64,000 bases of DNA from Methylobacterium sp. (GTDB lineage: Bacteria > Pseudomonadota > Alphaproteobacteria > Rhizobiales > Beijerinckiaceae), in contig JADCBP010000005.1 in NCBI GenBank assembly GCA_020253445.1, positions 62,001-126,000 of the forward strand, given 5' to 3'. Below the pieces are notes generated by a model. That model saw nothing but the letters and a program-made list of their open reading frames with translations, was not told the DNA's origin and ran no database searches. Below are positions 19,549 through 25,863 of the stretch, piece after piece. Every line of letters starts with the position of its first letter. Position 1 is the first letter of the stretch. The position numbers and the translations under genes are program-made.

Positions 19549-19938
19549 TCAGCGGACGTCGAGCGCGAAAAAATACACGTCGGTTATGTTCCGGGTCTCG
19601 TTTCGGAAGGTGACCGCTACCCGATCCCTGCCCACAAACCCCCGCTGCGAGCGATAGTAAATGGCGTAGCCCATCACCTCCACCTGCACGCATCGACTGG
19701 TGGTGAGGATGACGGATTCGCGCCGCAACTCGATCTCGCCTGCCGCAGCCTCTCGCGAGACGGTAGCGACGAGATCATCGGAAACCTTGCAGCTCTGCGG
19801 ATCGACCGGATTGATGAGACCCACTCGGGTTGTCTGCCCCGATGCGACGATGGTGGCGCCGGAAGCGCGCTCCTGCCCGACGACGCCACCGAAGCATATC
19901 GTCATCGCCAGGAACGCCAAAAGCGTTCGCAGAACCAT
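19549..19938 (-). CDS. Small exported two-cysteine protein, paralogue A (129 aa)
   Basis: ATG 19938 (MVLRTLLAFLAMTICFGGVV) gives a signal peptide; the ATG at 19962 adds eight residues. The mature part holds QSCKVSDDLVATVS, AGEIELRRE, SRCVQVEV, YAIYYRSQRGFVGRDRVAV. The pattern Cys, 14-19 residues, G-[KE]-[LIV], 13-18 residues, Cys, then V-x-Y and GFxGxDxV is shared with the genes at 20007 and 25387. Predicted all-beta with one disulfide. Function unknown; it follows the Pls-type synthetase on the same strand. Confidence 0.7.
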   Translation of the reverse strand: MVLRTLLAFLAMTICFGGVVGQERASGATIVASGQTTRVGLINPVDPQSCKVSDDLVATVSREAAAGEIELRRESVILTTSRCVQVEVMGYAIYYRSQRGFVGRDRVAVTFRNETRNITDVYFFALDVR

Positions 19939-20006
19939 GTCTCCCTCCTGCAGCGCGACCAAGGGCGTGGCTCATACCGCTCCGTCCGGCAGGCCCCGCC
20001 CTGCCT

Positions 20007-20408
20007 TCATTGGACGGTGATGGCGTAGCTCTGCCGCCGCGAGGTTGTCCGCGGCGCCTCGATGAACGGCGCGTAGAAGAAATCCACCGAGACATAATCC
20101 GTACCGCGAAAGCCGGCCTTCGGGGTGTAATAGATCATCTGAACCTGCATTTGGAACGGCTTGCATTGCGGGCCACTCACCGTCCGACGCTCCGGAACAA
20201 CCTCGACCTTGCCGTTCGCCGGCTGCGTGGCGACCCGACTTTCCGGCGTGCTCGACGCTGCACATTCCACGGGCGAATAAAGCGCGAAGGAGCCGAGCGC
20301 GGTTCGCTTGCCGGCTGCAACGGTCCGGGCCTCCTGCGCCAGCGCCGGCACGGCAGCCAAAACGAACACGGCGAATGCGCCTCGGAAAAGACTTTTTGCC
20401 GTCATCAT
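20007..20408 (-). CDS. Small exported two-cysteine protein, paralogue B (133 aa)
   Basis: The signal peptide is clear (FRGAFAVFVLAAVPALAQE). The mature domain has SPVECAASSTPESRV, NGKVEVVPERR, SGPQCKPFQMQVQM, IYYTPKAGFRGTDYVSVDFF, matching paralogues A and C in cysteine spacing and in the aromatic GF-G-D-V ending. It starts 63 bp after the stop of the Pls-type synthetase and is probably transcribed with it. Function unknown; a periplasmic beta-sandwich is inferred. Confidence 0.72.
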   Translation of the reverse strand: MMTAKSLFRGAFAVFVLAAVPALAQEARTVAAGKRTALGSFALYSPVECAASSTPESRVATQPANGKVEVVPERRTVSGPQCKPFQMQVQMIYYTPKAGFRGTDYVSVDFFYAPFIEAPRTTSRRQSYAITVQ

Positions 20409-20471: not shown

Positions 20472-23400
20472 CTAGTGCGACACCTTCGCCGTCGGCTGGG
20501 CCGGGGCGCCGCCCCAGACGGTGTTTGCGGGAATCTGCTCGCCCTTCATCACCAGCGTCAGCGGATTGAGTTGTGCAAAATCGCCCACCTTGGTGTCGTA
20601 GAGCACGGTGGCGAAGGGGCCGATGGTCACGCCATCACCAACCTCGATGCGGCCGACCTTCATCACACGGTCCTCGTAAAGATGCGTCTGGAGGCAGGAT
20701 AACTCGTTCATGGCGACGTGATCACCAATCACGACGCAATCGAATTCCGTGATGTCGGTGGTGTCCATGTAGACGCCCGAACCGATTCGGCAGCCGAAGA
20801 AGCGCAGCATGAACGGCAGATAGGCCGTGCCGCGCAGATGCTCGAGCAGCACCTTGCCACCCAGCCCCCAGTAGAGCACGGCGACAGCCTCGGTGCGCAT
20901 CGCCCACCAGCTCCACATCGGCCGTGCGAGCGGCTTGTAGACCCCCATCAACGCCCATTTTATGGCGCAGACGCAGGCGACCATGATGATCGGCATCACC
21001 ACGCTGGCCGCGACGAACCAGCCGGCCGCCTCGAAATACTCTTGCCCCTCCAAGGCCGGAAAGACGAAGAAGAACATCGCGATGGAGCCAAGCGTCAGAA
21101 ACAGCATGGTCGGGAAGGTGGTGTGCATGGCCTCGAACACCGCGCGCCACAGCTTCATCGAGAAGGGCGGCTCATAGGTCCAGTTCGCGGCGACACCCTC
21201 GAATTTCTGGCGCACGGGGAACTTGATCGGCGGGGAGCCGAACCAGGTCTCGTCAGGCTGCGTCTCACCATGTTCCGGCGCCTTGGATTTCACGCCGATC
21301 AGCGTGCCCTCGCGCAGATGCGTGCCATGGCCGATGACCGCATTGTTGCCGACGAAAACGCGATCCTCGATCAGCGTCTTCTTGAAGGTCACCCAGCCGC
21401 GATCGATATCCTCGTCGCCGAGCGAGCATTCATCGGCCATGAAGCTCTTCGAGCCGATGGTCAGCAGGTCGTAGCGCGCGCCGATATTGGTCGAAATCTC
21501 GGCGCCCTTGCCGATGCGTGCACCCATGAGGCGATACCAGGCCCGCATGTAAACCGTCGCATAGAGCGAGGAGAGGGTGTCGAGCGATACTTCCGTGCAC
21601 AGATTGACGATCCACTGGCGCAGATAAAGCCAGGAATGCAGCGAATAGGTGCCGGGTTGCAGCCGGCGCGGCATCAGGGTCCAGCGTACGAGGATGACGA
21701 AGGCAATCGTGAAGACCACCAGAGCCGCGCCCATGATCCAGGCGATGATGGGCAGCACGTGGTACCATTGCACCCAATCCGCCGTGTTGATGAGTACCGC
21801 CTCGATCGTGTCATAGACGAAGAAGGCCGGGAAAAGCGGCATGAGGCCGATGCCCGAAACCGCGATGATCAGCAGACCATAGACCCAGTATTGCAGATGC
21901 CGCCAGACCGGGCCCGGCAGCGAACGCTCCGGAAGGGTCGCGGGGTCGATCACGCCGATTTTCCTCGCTGGCGAGCCATCCCAGATCTCGAATGGCTTGA
22001 TCTGGACGCCGGCGGGTATGGCCGACATATCCTCGATACGGGCGTCATGCCCGATGCGGCAGCCGGCCGGCACCATCACCTGGTTGCCGATATAGCTGTC
22101 CGAGCCGATCGCCACTTCGCCGATGATGAGTTCACCCGCCATCACCTCGGCATTGGCGATTTTCGTCTTGTGGCCGATGGAAGCGCCCGCGCCAATCTTC
22201 ACGAGATCGGCCGCGCCGAATTGGGCATGGGCGATCATCACGCCGGAGCCCACCTTCGCGCCCAGCAGGCGCAGGTAGAGCCGCATGATCGGTGAGTTCG
22301 CAAGATAGCTCGGATGCGCCAGCGCATAGAGGCGCTGCACGAACCACCAGCGGAAGAAATAGGCGCCCCAGAGCGGATAGCGCCCCGGCTTCGTGCGACC
22401 GATGACGACCCATTTCAGCGCCACCACGAGGAAGAGCGTGCCGAACTTGATGGTGGCATAGGCCCCGCAAAGGATGCCTACCTGCTTCCAGAACGAGAAA
22501 TTCATCTCGTGGATGACCATGTAGGTCAGGAAGACGCCCAGCCATTGCAGGGTCGAGATCGTGAGGATCAGCGGCATGGCCAGCCCTTGCGCGATCGTGC
22601 AGGCGATGCGGCGCGCGAGCGGCGGGGGCGCGAAGGAGAGATCCGGCGGCGGACCCTGAAGATGTCCGAACCTGGCATCCAGCTCCGCGCCGATCTTCCG
22701 AAGGGTGCGGTGCTGGTAGATGTCCTGAAGCGTGATGCCGGTGAAGCTCGGGTTCTCGCGCACGATCGAGATGAACTGCGCGGCGATCAGGGAATGGCCG
22801 CCGAGATCGAGGAAGAAATCCGCCTCGAAGGTGATGGCGCGACCGGGCAGGACCCGCTTCGCGGCGGCCAGAAGCATGGCCTCCGTGTGCGTTCGCGGCG
22901 GCTCCTCGTCATTCGCGGCGAAGATCGCTTCGCTGAGCGGCATCGCCTTCAGCGCCTTGCGGTCGGTCTTGCCGGAGATGAGGCGCGGCAATTCGGGAAC
23001 GGTCTCGAATCGCTCGGGGATCATGTAGGGCGGGAGACGGCGCTTCAGTTCCTCGCGCAGCGTGGTCGCGGCGATGATCGCCTTGGGTTCGGGCACGCAG
23101 AAGGCCACGAGGCGCTCCATGCCGCCATCATTGCGCACCACCACGGCGGCCTGAAGAACGTCGTCGGAATCCACCAGCGCGCTCTCGATTTCGCCAAGCT
23201 CGACGCGGAAGCCGCGGATCTTCACCTGGTCGTCAATGCGGCCGTGGAAGGCGATGTTGCCCTCGGAATTGAGGCTCACCGCATCGCCGGAACGATAGAG
23301 GATCGGATCGGATGCGCCCTCACGAAAGGGGTTCGCGATGAACTTCTCGTTCGTCAGGTCGGGCCGGGCGAGATAGCCCTGCGCCACGCCCGGGCCGCCG

Positions 23401-24527
23401 ATGAGCAGTTCACCCTCCTGCCCGGGGCCGAGCAGGTTCATGTTCTCGTCGACGATATAGGCCGTGTAATTGGGGATCGGGCGGCCGATGGTCACCGGCT
23501 TGCCGCGCCGCACCTCTTCCACGGTGGCCACCACGGTCGCTTCCGTGGGGCCATAGGTGTTGAAGATGCGCCGGCCCGGCCTCGTCCATTTCTCGACAAG
23601 CGCGGGCGGCAGCGCCTCGCCGCCGAGCAGGATCAGCCGCAGGCCGGGAATCTCGGCCGGCAGAACGGAGAGAAGCGTCGGCACGGTGTCGATGACGCTG
23701 ACCTTCTTCTCGGTCAGAAGGGCCGGCAGCTTCTCGATATCCGCCAGAACTTCGGGCGTCGCGACATAGAGCGTCGCACCGGCGAGATAGGGCACCCAGA
23801 TCTCTTCCATGGACAGATCGAAAGCGACGGAAGCGCTCTGGAACACCACGTCATCGGCGGTCACGCCATAGACCGCATTTCCCGCGCGCAGGAAGTGGCA
23901 GATATTGGCCTGCGTGATGACGATGCCCTTGGGAATGCCGGTCGAGCCCGAGGTGTAGATCATGTAGGCTGCATGGTAGGGCATTGCCTCGGCGGGCTCG
24001 GCCTCTTCCATTCCGCCCTCGGCGAGAAGGGAGCCGGCATTGTGATGCGGCACGGGGATCGCCTTCCCCCGGCTGAGCCCGGTCTCGTCGGTCACGAGGC
24101 CAGTCGCGGCACAATCCGTGAGGCAGGTCGCGATTCGGTCAACCGGCGCATCCCAGTCGAAGGGCAGGAAGGCAGCACCGGTCTTGGTGATGGCGACCTG
24201 CGCGAGAAGGAGGTCGATGCCGCGCGGCATCCAGAGGCCGAGCACGCGGCCCGGCGCGGCACCCAGCGCCGCAAGGCGGCGCGCGGCGCGATCCGTCAGA
24301 CGGTCCGCTTCGCCATAGGTGATCCGACGCTCGTCGGAAAGGTAAAGAACCTTGTCGGGGCGCTCCGCCGCACTGGCGCGGAAGATGGCCGCGAGTGTCT
24401 CGGATCGAATGAGATCGGGATCGACGGGACCGGCGAGAAATGCGCTGCCAGCGAGGCCGGCATTCGCAACAGGCTCCGCATGCGCAACCGAACCCGAAGG
24501 CTTGAGAACCGCCTCAGTACCGTTCAT
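20472..24527 (-). CDS. Pls/PosA-family single-module nonribosomal peptide synthetase with membrane domain (1351 aa)
   Basis: The start is ATG 24527 (MNGTEAVLKPSG). Adenylation domain about residues 45-525: YTSGSTGIPKG (191-201), NTYGPTEAT (323-331), YRSGD (411-415), GRIDDQVKIRGFRVEL (429-444), SGKTDR (518-523). Carrier domain about 545-620 with LGGHSL (Ser579). Then six membrane helices in pairs alternate with three left-handed hexapeptide-repeat modules. This is the layout of epsilon-poly-lysine synthetase Pls; there is no condensation or thioesterase domain. Hand alignment to GrsA gives selectivity residues D237, L238, E241, D280, L300, G302, T324, V332, V333, K520, with the acidic E and D seen in lysine-type codes. 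I infer membrane-bound polymerisation or capping with a basic amino acid. Confidence 0.85.
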   Translation of the reverse strand: MNGTEAVLKPSGSVAHAEPVANAGLAGSAFLAGPVDPDLIRSETLAAIFRASAAERPDKVLYLSDERRITYGEADRLTDRAARRLAALGAAPGRVLGLWMPRGIDLLLAQVAITKTGAAFLPFDWDAPVDRIATCLTDCAATGLVTDETGLSRGKAIPVPHHNAGSLLAEGGMEEAEPAEAMPYHAAYMIYTSGSTGIPKGIVITQANICHFLRAGNAVYGVTADDVVFQSASVAFDLSMEEIWVPYLAGATLYVATPEVLADIEKLPALLTEKKVSVIDTVPTLLSVLPAEIPGLRLILLGGEALPPALVEKWTRPGRRIFNTYGPTEATVVATVEEVRRGKPVTIGRPIPNYTAYIVDENMNLLGPGQEGELLIGGPGVAQGYLARPDLTNEKFIANPFREGASDPILYRSGDAVSLNSEGNIAFHGRIDDQVKIRGFRVELGEIESALVDSDDVLQAAVVVRNDGGMERLVAFCVPEPKAIIAATTLREELKRRLPPYMIPERFETVPELPRLISGKTDRKALKAMPLSEAIFAANDEEPPRTHTEAMLLAAAKRVLPGRAITFEADFFLDLGGHSLIAAQFISIVRENPSFTGITLQDIYQHRTLRKIGAELDARFGHLQGPPPDLSFAPPPLARRIACTIAQGLAMPLILTISTLQWLGVFLTYMVIHEMNFSFWKQVGILCGAYATIKFGTLFLVVALKWVVIGRTKPGRYPLWGAYFFRWWFVQRLYALAHPSYLANSPIMRLYLRLLGAKVGSGVMIAHAQFGAADLVKIGAGASIGHKTKIANAEVMAGELIIGEVAIGSDSYIGNQVMVPAGCRIGHDARIEDMSAIPAGVQIKPFEIWDGSPARKIGVIDPATLPERSLPGPVWRHLQYWVYGLLIIAVSGIGLMPLFPAFFVYDTIEAVLINTADWVQWYHVLPIIAWIMGAALVVFTIAFVILVRWTLMPRRLQPGTYSLHSWLYLRQWIVNLCTEVSLDTLSSLYATVYMRAWYRLMGARIGKGAEISTNIGARYDLLTIGSKSFMADECSLGDEDIDRGWVTFKKTLIEDRVFVGNNAVIGHGTHLREGTLIGVKSKAPEHGETQPDETWFGSPPIKFPVRQKFEGVAANWTYEPPFSMKLWRAVFEAMHTTFPTMLFLTLGSIAMFFFVFPALEGQEYFEAAGWFVAASVVMPIIMVACVCAIKWALMGVYKPLARPMWSWWAMRTEAVAVLYWGLGGKVLLEHLRGTAYLPFMLRFFGCRIGSGVYMDTTDITEFDCVVIGDHVAMNELSCLQTHLYEDRVMKVGRIEVGDGVTIGPFATVLYDTKVGDFAQLNPLTLVMKGEQIPANTVWGGAPAQPTAKVSH

Positions 24528-24605: not shown

Positions 24606-24748
24606 TCGACACCGCTCGATGCGCACGTCAAACGCTCAACTTGCGGCGAAACATGGGTGAAACCGGGCTTCGTCGGCTTTCGGCATGGAAGTGGGGCGCA
24701 TGCCCTGAACCGGGCCTGAACGAGGAGGAGACGGCCCGTCGCTTCCGT

Positions 24749-25369
24749 TCACGGCTCCCAGTGGCCTGGGCCCGGCAGCCAATCGTGGCGCCCGGCATCG
24801 ATGCGCAGGAGCTTGCCCTGCCAGATATCGGCCCCGACGGCATGGTGCCGGGAGAGTTCCGCCAGCCGCACAAGGAGGACACGGGCCACGCCGCCATGCG
24901 CCACGACACAGGCATCGCCACGCAGAGCCGTGAGCCATTCGGACACGCGATCATGCACCATCTGATAGCTTTCGCCGCCAGGAGGAGCGAAATTCCATTT
25001 GTCGCGGTCGCGCGCCTGCGCGCCGCGCGCATCGCGTTCGACGATCTCGCGCCAGGTGCTGCCCTCCCAGCGGCCGAAGCTGATCTCCTTGAGACGATCA
25101 TCCGTCTCGAACTCCTCGGGCGGAAGGCCCAACCCTTCCCGCAGGAGGGCCATGGTCTCGCGCGTCCGGCCCAGCGGGCTCGCGATGAAGGGCAGGCCCG
25201 CCAGATAGTCGCGGTCCACTCCGTCAAGCTTCTCCGCGCGGATTGCATCGCCGACAGCCCGCGCCTGCAGGCGCCCCCTTGCGTTGAGCGGAATATCGGT
25301 CTGGCCCTGAAGGCGCCCCTGGGCGTTCCAGTCCGTCTCGCCGTGCCGGAAGAAATAGAGAACGGGCAT
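24749..25369 (-). CDS. Histidine-phosphatase-superfamily (phosphoglycerate-mutase-like) protein (206 aa)
   Basis: LYFFRHGETDWNAQGRLQGQ carries the RHG phosphate pocket, IASPLGRTRETMALL the second Arg, ISFGRWEG the Glu region and CVVAHGGVARVLL the second His. This is a complete active site for a broad-specificity phosphatase or mutase. It starts 17 bp after paralogue C in the fabI operon. Substrate unknown; a link to the adjacent synthetase is speculative. Confidence 0.88.
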   Translation of the reverse strand: MPVLYFFRHGETDWNAQGRLQGQTDIPLNARGRLQARAVGDAIRAEKLDGVDRDYLAGLPFIASPLGRTRETMALLREGLGLPPEEFETDDRLKEISFGRWEGSTWREIVERDARGAQARDRDKWNFAPPGGESYQMVHDRVSEWLTALRGDACVVAHGGVARVLLVRLAELSRHHAVGADIWQGKLLRIDAGRHDWLPGPGHWEP

Positions 25370-25386: not shown

Positions 25387-25863
25387 TTACTCGACCGTGA
25401 TGGTCGCGGTCACGGCGCGCACATCGCCATTCGGATAGACGACCCGGAATTCGAGTTTTTCCTCACCCCGGAACCGGCGATCGGGGCGGAAGATCACAGC
25501 TTGCCCGTTCGGCGAGGTGCCGATGCAGGTGCGGCGCGGCGCGCCCGGAACATCGCGCAGGTTGATGGGGTGTGGACGGGTGCGCAGTTTTCCGCTCCTG
25601 GGGTCACCGGAGAATTCGACGCGCGGCGTCGACCCCACCTTGCACTCACGATCGAGCGTCAGATAGACACCGAGAAAGATATCGGAACCGGGCCGGCCCT
25701 TGCGGGTGACCTCGACGGGTGTCGTCACCGGGGTGTGAGCCGCAGCCGCCGGTGCGGCCGGGCGCGGCACGGGCGTGATGGATTGCGCCACGACCCCCGT
25801 GACCCCGAGAAAGGCGGCGAAACACAGCGCGGAAGAACGCAAGCCTTTCACGCCTGGCCTCAT
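25387..25863 (-). CDS. Small exported two-cysteine protein, paralogue C (158 aa)
   Basis: The signal peptide is SALCFAAFLGVTGVVAQS, then a Pro/Ala linker. The mature domain has DRECKVGSTPRVEFSGD, SGKLRTRPH, RRTCIGTSPNGQAV, FRPDRRFRGEEKLEFRVVY: the same Cys-G-Cys-F-G pattern as paralogues A and B, 5 kb away on the far side of the synthetase gene. Its ATG overlaps the fabI stop (ATGA), so it is translationally coupled to fabI. Function unknown. Confidence 0.72.
   Translation of the reverse strand: MRPGVKGLRSSALCFAAFLGVTGVVAQSITPVPRPAAPAAAAHTPVTTPVEVTRKGRPGSDIFLGVYLTLDRECKVGSTPRVEFSGDPRSGKLRTRPHPINLRDVPGAPRRTCIGTSPNGQAVIFRPDRRFRGEEKLEFRVVYPNGDVRAVTATITVE

Follow-up and report, generated by a model that had tools for sequence, protein, structure and literature searches.

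A probable Pls/PosA-type polymer synthetase of Methylobacterium whose selectivity pocket belongs to a clade nested among ornithine-code enzymes

Which amino acid is activated by a membrane-bound peptide synthetase that is encoded by a single gene, and what is built from it? This question is raised by a gene on the minus strand (positions 20472..24527) of a 64,000-nucleotide stretch of a Methylobacterium sp. genome (GenBank assembly GCA_020253445.1, contig JADCBP010000005.1, positions 62,001 to 126,000), which we refer to as the window. A sequence-only reading had described the encoded protein as a nonribosomal peptide synthetase (NRPS) of the Pls/PosA type that makes a homo-oligomer or short peptide of lysine or a related diamino acid. 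We regard it as very probable that the window enzyme is a Pls/PosA-type polymer synthetase. The best explanation as a whole, for which belief and doubt are evenly balanced, is an inner-membrane synthetase of a cationic, ornithine-like homopolymer belonging to the branch of PosA, the delta-poly-L-ornithine synthetase of Acinetobacter baumannii, which produces a polymer of 7-12 ornithine units (PMC10522769).

Domain layout of the synthetase

The frame at 20472-24527 codes for 1351 residues with no inner stop. A longer in-frame start exists (GTG at 24626); a GGAG ten bases upstream of the ATG at 24527 favours the ATG. The protein scored 584.4 bits against TIGR02353 (Pls/PosA family NRPS; cut-off 423.1) and 387.7 bits against TIGR01733 (amino acid adenylation domain; cut-off 317.4), and AMP-binding, AMP-binding_C, PP-binding and Hexapep were all found above their Pfam cut-offs. 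Neither a condensation nor a thioesterase domain was listed by Pfam in the synthetase. The features of the gene, all on the minus strand, are the following:

20472..24527, minus strand: Pls/PosA-family synthetase of 1351 amino acids with adenylation (A), carrier (T) and terminal membrane domains (translation, TIGR02353, Pfam)
23232..24395, minus strand: adenylation core, residues 45-432, with pocket residues D237, L238, E241, D280, L300, G302, T324, V332 and V333 (alignment to PosA structure 8g95)
22938..23231, minus strand: adenylation C-terminal subdomain, residues 433-530, including K520 (PF13193 at 446-520; K520 conserved)
22677..22895, minus strand: carrier domain, about residues 545-617 (PF00550 at 561-614; LGGHS motif)
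22791-22793, minus strand: phosphopantetheine site Ser579 (within LDLGGHSL)
22404..22619, minus strand: membrane helix pair 1, about residues 637-708 (hydropathy, AlphaFold)
21969..22292, minus strand: beta-helix (hexapeptide) module 1, about residues 746-853 (Hexapep at 807-835, AlphaFold)
21675..21911, minus strand: membrane helix pair 2, about residues 873-951, the model showing a break in its first helix (hydropathy, AlphaFold)
21231..21527, minus strand: beta-helix module 2, about residues 1001-1099 (AlphaFold)
20949..21164, minus strand: membrane helix pair 3, about residues 1122-1193 (hydropathy, AlphaFold)
20493..20798, minus strand: beta-helix module 3, about residues 1244-1345 (AlphaFold)

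The AlphaFold model of residues 30-531 has a mean predicted local distance difference test score (pLDDT) of 91.4. Hydropathy analysis gave 11 overlapping segments that group into six stretches, or three pairs, and the model of residues 620-1351 (mean pLDDT 89.7, predicted template modelling score 0.89) contains a helix pair followed by a beta-helix, three times in succession. The helix pairs of the model are those of the hydropathy analysis, with the first helix of the second pair split in two. Profiles, hydropathy and AlphaFold therefore agree with the architecture described from the sequence, namely one A domain, a carrier with Ser579 and six helices with three hexapeptide modules, without condensation or thioesterase domain, and its assignment to the Pls/PosA layout is borne out by the TIGR02353 score, the domain order and the predicted terminal fold. 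The ratio of nonsynonymous to synonymous substitution rates (dN/dS) of the gene is 0.085-0.115 relative to four relatives, and the gene is under purifying selection.

Based on the domains present, the adenylation domain would activate one cationic amino acid with ATP and load it onto Ser579 of the carrier. By analogy to PosA, the terminal membrane/beta-helix domain would then join the monomers one by one via their side-chain amines, yielding a short cationic isopeptide. The same analogy supports the earlier proposal that a homopolymer is made at the inner membrane.

The selectivity pocket and its origin

The pocket code of the window enzyme is DLEDLGTVVK. The first nine residues (D237, L238, E241, D280, L300, G302, T324, V332 and V333) align to D, M, E, H, N, G, T, V and S of crystallised PosA, with D237 and E241 as the equivalents of PosA D217 and E221. 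The PosA structure stops short of the tenth, K520, which is a Lys in all 23 rows of an order-level set (TIGR02353 was over its cut-off in 23 of 150 genomes of the order). The pocket that had been read by hand was thus recovered, and the alignment to PosA placed the same residues, E241 and D280, and no others at GrsA positions 239 and 278. Removal of D217 or E221 abolishes PosA activity, the exchanges T304A and S313A cause a 33-fold and a 183-fold loss, and H260 and N280 make no contact (PMC10522769). Relative to the PosA code, DMEHNGTVSK, Asp, Glu and Thr are retained in the window enzyme, and Met is replaced by Leu, His by Asp, Asn by Leu and Ser by Val.

We compared these positions over 81 rows, consisting of the window protein and the best 80 of at least 335 confirmed relatives. 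Position 4 (D280) is an Asp in 81 of 81 rows, and position 5 is Ile in 41, Leu in 38 and Val in two. One of the two patterns used in the scan, FDL[SA][ML]EEI, spans pocket positions 1-3, so that part of their invariance in the 80 loci comes from the selection itself; neither pattern contains position 4. The code of the DLED clade (Rhizobia, Methylobacterium, Bosea), DLED(I/L/V)G(T/S)VVK, is matched by the window enzyme.

Two lines of evidence connect this clade to ornithine enzymes. First, the adenylation core and PosA share 46.5% identity over 400 columns, and a Foldseek search with the adenylation domain returned PosA entries 8g95-8g98 at ranks 1-6 (45-46% identity), with the epsilon-poly-L-lysine synthase 7wew at rank 35 (34% identity). 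Second, in a 63-row tree (which took in 18 of the 80 loci and left out L158, as its adenylation part is masked), 38 DLED rows form one clade with a support of 100 in the Shimodaira-Hasegawa-like approximate likelihood ratio test. It is nested in rows with ornithine codes, and its sister is a group of five DMEHNGTVSK rows (branch 99). The same nesting was obtained in a 32-row tree, on which an approximately unbiased (AU) test disfavoured holding together nine ornithine-branch rows (eight DMEH and L152; p-AU 0.017), a group chosen once a tree was at hand. When the nine aligned pocket positions were removed (33 rows, residues 150-432), PosA joined the same five DMEHNGTVSK rows with a support of 99, and this group met the DLED clade (support 92) and the DMEH row L042 at an open three-way fork. 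The window enzyme is located within the wider ornithine-code grade in the 63-row and 32-row trees, and outside the six-row group holding PosA in this pocket-stripped tree. The 32- and 33-row trees are based on selected rows; the long rows L054, L058, L167, L043 and L044 and others, mostly near-duplicates, were left out. We do not interpret the pocket letters of L043 and L044, since these vary with the alignment.

The DLED clade stands away from two DAES rows (Lys-like by the Ala at position 2) and, in the 63-row tree only, from the one DGES row (beta-Lys-like code), where Lys-like, beta-Lys-like and Dap/Dab-like (2,3-diaminopropionate/diaminobutyrate) are labels for codes taken from PMC10522769 and not assays. 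Because trees and structure search agree, the DLED pocket would most simply be derived from an ornithine pocket. The protein of Rhabdaerophilum calidifontis shows zero tree distance from that of a genome of the window's genus, which is therefore probably Rhabdaerophilum.

Candidate monomers and competing readings

Glu at pocket position 3 and Asp at position 4 had been taken as a mark of lysine and beta-lysine domains. This does not hold for the codes in PMC12283262, where DGEDHGTVVK stands for lysine, DGEDHGTVTK for ornithine and DMEDVGSVDK for ornithine plus lysine, and arginine codes usually begin with Asp-Ala/Val-Glu-Asp. The pair is not a lysine signature, since it is also found in ornithine and arginine codes. 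At position 2, lysine enzymes of the family tend to carry Ala (PMC10522769). The window enzyme has Leu238 here, about the size of the Met of PosA and unlike the small Ala of epsilon-poly-L-lysine synthases. With PosA as the nearest structure and the clade within the ornithine-code grade, the basic amino acid of the earlier proposal is retained, whereas its more specific choice of lysine or beta-lysine finds no support.

L-ornithine, or a diamino acid of similar length, is the most likely monomer. Ornithine itself is the leading if tentative candidate, a guess for which we draw on the size of residue 238 together with the tree and structure search; a monomer new for the family is doubtful, lysine more doubtful still, and beta-lysine or diaminobutyrate improbable. 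As an ordinary metabolite, ornithine requires no dedicated gene for its supply, in keeping with a synthetase gene that stands alone.

Several observations weigh against an ornithine-like product. Two positions of the PosA pocket have residues of another kind in the window enzyme (D280 for H260 and V333 for S313), and the second pocket carboxylate is not explained by plain ornithine. The nearest canonical code that we met is the lysine code DGEDHGTVVK, which agrees at eight of the ten positions (PMC12283262). All trees come from quick searches and were midpoint-rooted, and long-branch warnings were given for the 63-row and the 32-row tree. Finally, the genome contains a lysine-2,3-aminomutase-like gene beside epmA, so beta-lysine may be available.

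A cationic monomer new to the family, such as an arginine-like or hydroxylated diamino acid whose extra group is bound by Asp280, can be put forward with reserve. It is consistent with the invariant Asp at position 4 beside the Glu at position 3, with the clustering of arginine domains on Glu239 with Asp278 (PMC12283262) and with the modest activation of arginine by a Bdellovibrionales member of the family (PMC10522769). Among the scanned neighbours in the window and the recurrent neighbours, most of which had no family search, no gene for the biosynthesis of an unusual monomer was recognised, which argues weakly against such a monomer. Moreover, guanidino groups are poorly nucleophilic, which disfavours isopeptide bond formation and is a point against an arginine-like monomer.

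A poly-lysine or poly-beta-lysine product is likewise unlikely in our view. The lysine code mentioned above and the aminomutase-like gene argue for it; against it, the two DAES rows and the DGES row are placed on another branch of the 63-row tree, and a Leu is found at position 2 in place of Ala or Gly. The position of the aminomutase gene next to epmA presumably reflects the modification of elongation factor P (EF-P), which speaks against a supply of beta-lysine for a polymer. At locus L144 (1399-3461, minus strand), a lysine-2,3-aminomutase-like gene (TIGR03822 over, EpmB model under cut-off) overlaps the EpmA gene, and this gene pair suggests beta-lysylation of EF-P by an AblA-like enzyme.

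That no polymer is made and the terminal domain, as a membrane acyltransferase, transfers a single cationic residue to an envelope molecule is very unlikely: its modules resemble left-handed beta-helix acetyltransferases by fold, but PosA, which has the same terminal domain family, polymerises ornithine to 7-12 units (PMC10522769).

Returning to the ornithine-like homopolymer, the gene is widespread and often found at one chromosomal place, which suggests a regular physiological or envelope role of the polymer rather than that of a rare antibiotic. It is conceivable, though doubtful, that in the DLED clade, a branch widespread among alphaproteobacteria, an ornithine pocket was remodelled to accept a monomer new to the family. 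If so, the polymer made by methylotrophs, Bosea and Azospirillum would be a new cationic one that serves a regular function in their physiology. The tree narrows the candidate monomers to a few, and the tie between ornithine enzymes and this widespread branch, often found at the same chromosomal place, bears on the use of cationic homopolymers, known mainly from actinomycetes, by ordinary Gram-negative bacteria.

Among known systems, the window enzyme resembles PosA in its A-T-terminal layout, in the pocket Asp, Glu and Thr, as its best solved match and in the open fork shared with the DLED clade; the pocket codes differ as described. With Pls, the epsilon-poly-L-lysine synthase of Streptomyces, it shares the domain order and the terminal domain family (PMC10522769), whereas the adenylation domain of Pls (7wew) is the more distant match noted above and has an Ala-type position 2. 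Patel and Gulick (2023) reported DLEDIGTV(T/V/I)K as an uncharacterised group (PMC10522769) of the same family and pocket type, which differs in the Ile at position 5, where the window enzyme has Leu, a swap common within the clade. The identical code, DLEDLGTVVK, was reported in 2023 for a non-alpha poly-amino acid (NAPAA) cluster in Bosea NBC_00550, a related alphaproteobacterium, and in seven further complete Bosea genomes (PMC10508160). A 2021 survey also found NAPAA clusters in nearly all of its Methylobacterium and Methylorubrum genomes (PMC8561711). Hence, the view that such a system is little described in this lineage is contradicted in part, for code and clusters; no experimental substrate or product for the DLED code group was found in the open-licence PMC literature. 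The DLED group was already in print as uncharacterised; its origin as a clade, its distribution in the family, its housekeeping location without a partner and the purifying selection are new here.

Distribution, chromosomal setting and terminal domain

The 23 order-level rows comprise ten DLED(I/L/V)G(T/S)VVK, two DMEHNGTVTK, two DAESVGTVVK and one DGESVSVVNK code, six DFE or DYE codes and two split systems. In a phylum-wide search of 397 genomes, 30 had a match at 1e-100, and the 23 newly fetched loci carry ten DLED, six DMEH and four DFEALGTVTK codes, one DVEANGTGSK and one DSECYGGVTK, the remaining one being masked. We sampled 298 genomes of the GTDB family: Pls/PosA matches exceed the cut-off in 210 of them and fall under 1e-60 in 215. 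These are counts of profile matches; pocket codes were read in 13 genomes of the family, and all 13 are DLED. At least 15 genomes of the same genus are among the matches listed, one of them weaker (G700), and the 20 listed of the 83 family genomes with no match include none from the genus. Cultured carriers of a DLED-type gene are, for example, Azospirillum brasilense and Bosea strains. Among the other family members, L152, on the ornithine branch, has the unusual pocket DVEANGTGSK, and L167, from the window's class and under the TIGR02353 cut-off, has DSECYGGVTK, the code of the Bdellovibrionales member that activated arginine modestly (PMC10522769).

The genome (3,275,025 bases, 18 contigs) contains one Pls/PosA gene over cut-off and no match to a condensation domain. 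In addition to AcpS, a second protein of the genome has a phosphopantetheinyl transferase domain; a profile search found no diaminobutyrate transaminase reaching the cut-off. Next to the synthetase gene, the window contains:

24749..25369, minus strand: histidine phosphatase gene, directly upstream (PF00300)
19549-19962, 20007-20408 and 25387-25863, minus strand: small related proteins (signal-like starts by eye)

Of the best 80 loci, 67 have at least 1 kb of upstream sequence, and 49 of these carry a phosphatase gene on the same strand no more than 450 bp upstream; fabI lies upstream within 4 kb in 40 of 57 loci, and aroC downstream within 1300 bp in 38 of 72. The synthetase gene is thus commonly found between a fabI-phosphatase pair and aroC. 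We checked nine genomes (G118, G090, G131, G104, G074, G037, G071, G129 and G031) in which the fabI-phosphatase pair stands without a synthetase over cut-off; we therefore regard the setting as a place and not a pathway, and the histidine phosphatase was rejected as a dedicated partner. None of 14 Azospirillum/Rhodospirillales rows, only five of which have at least 1 kb upstream, shows the phosphatase or aroC nearby. The phosphatase is a housekeeping neighbour, and the location that the synthetase gene commonly occupies is a housekeeping one, where no partner gene was recognised. The three small proteins flank the synthetase and phosphatase genes, have related copies in close relatives only and gave no Pfam or NCBIfam match; being so confined and without family match, these secreted-looking paralogues were not accepted as part of the system. 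SbnA/SbnB genes occur in two of 103 loci, split systems only. Their absence is weak evidence, because six order-level loci with Dap/Dab codes also lack them in the fetched stretches.

For the terminal domain, Foldseek gave partial matches with query template modelling scores of 0.08-0.14 among the 50 matches listed. These are left-handed beta-helix acyltransferases and carbonic anhydrases, and no solved structure among them spans the whole domain. One stretch of beta-helix module 3 is conserved:

20658..20690, minus strand: QTHLYEDRVMK, residues 1280-1290, candidate catalytic stretch (invariant residues)

All 35 rows of an alignment that spans the ornithine, lysine, beta-lysine and Dap/Dab code classes, and that left out the two split systems, have Q1280, H1282, E1285 and K1290 in common. 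Since these four residues are shared across code classes, we infer that module 3 is a reasonable candidate for the site of catalysis. The two split systems do not contain the TH(L/M/F) motif, which may therefore not be universal. In these systems, the terminal domain is fused to tandem carriers and has no A domain: L043 (5559-11452, minus strand) has four carriers and adjoins a protein with condensation, A and T domains, L044 (5419-11957, minus strand) has three and adjoins a protein of the same order with an additional thioesterase, and both adjoin SbnA/SbnB-type 2,3-diaminopropionate genes. In the other 21 members of the 23-row order set, A and terminal domains are encoded in one frame.

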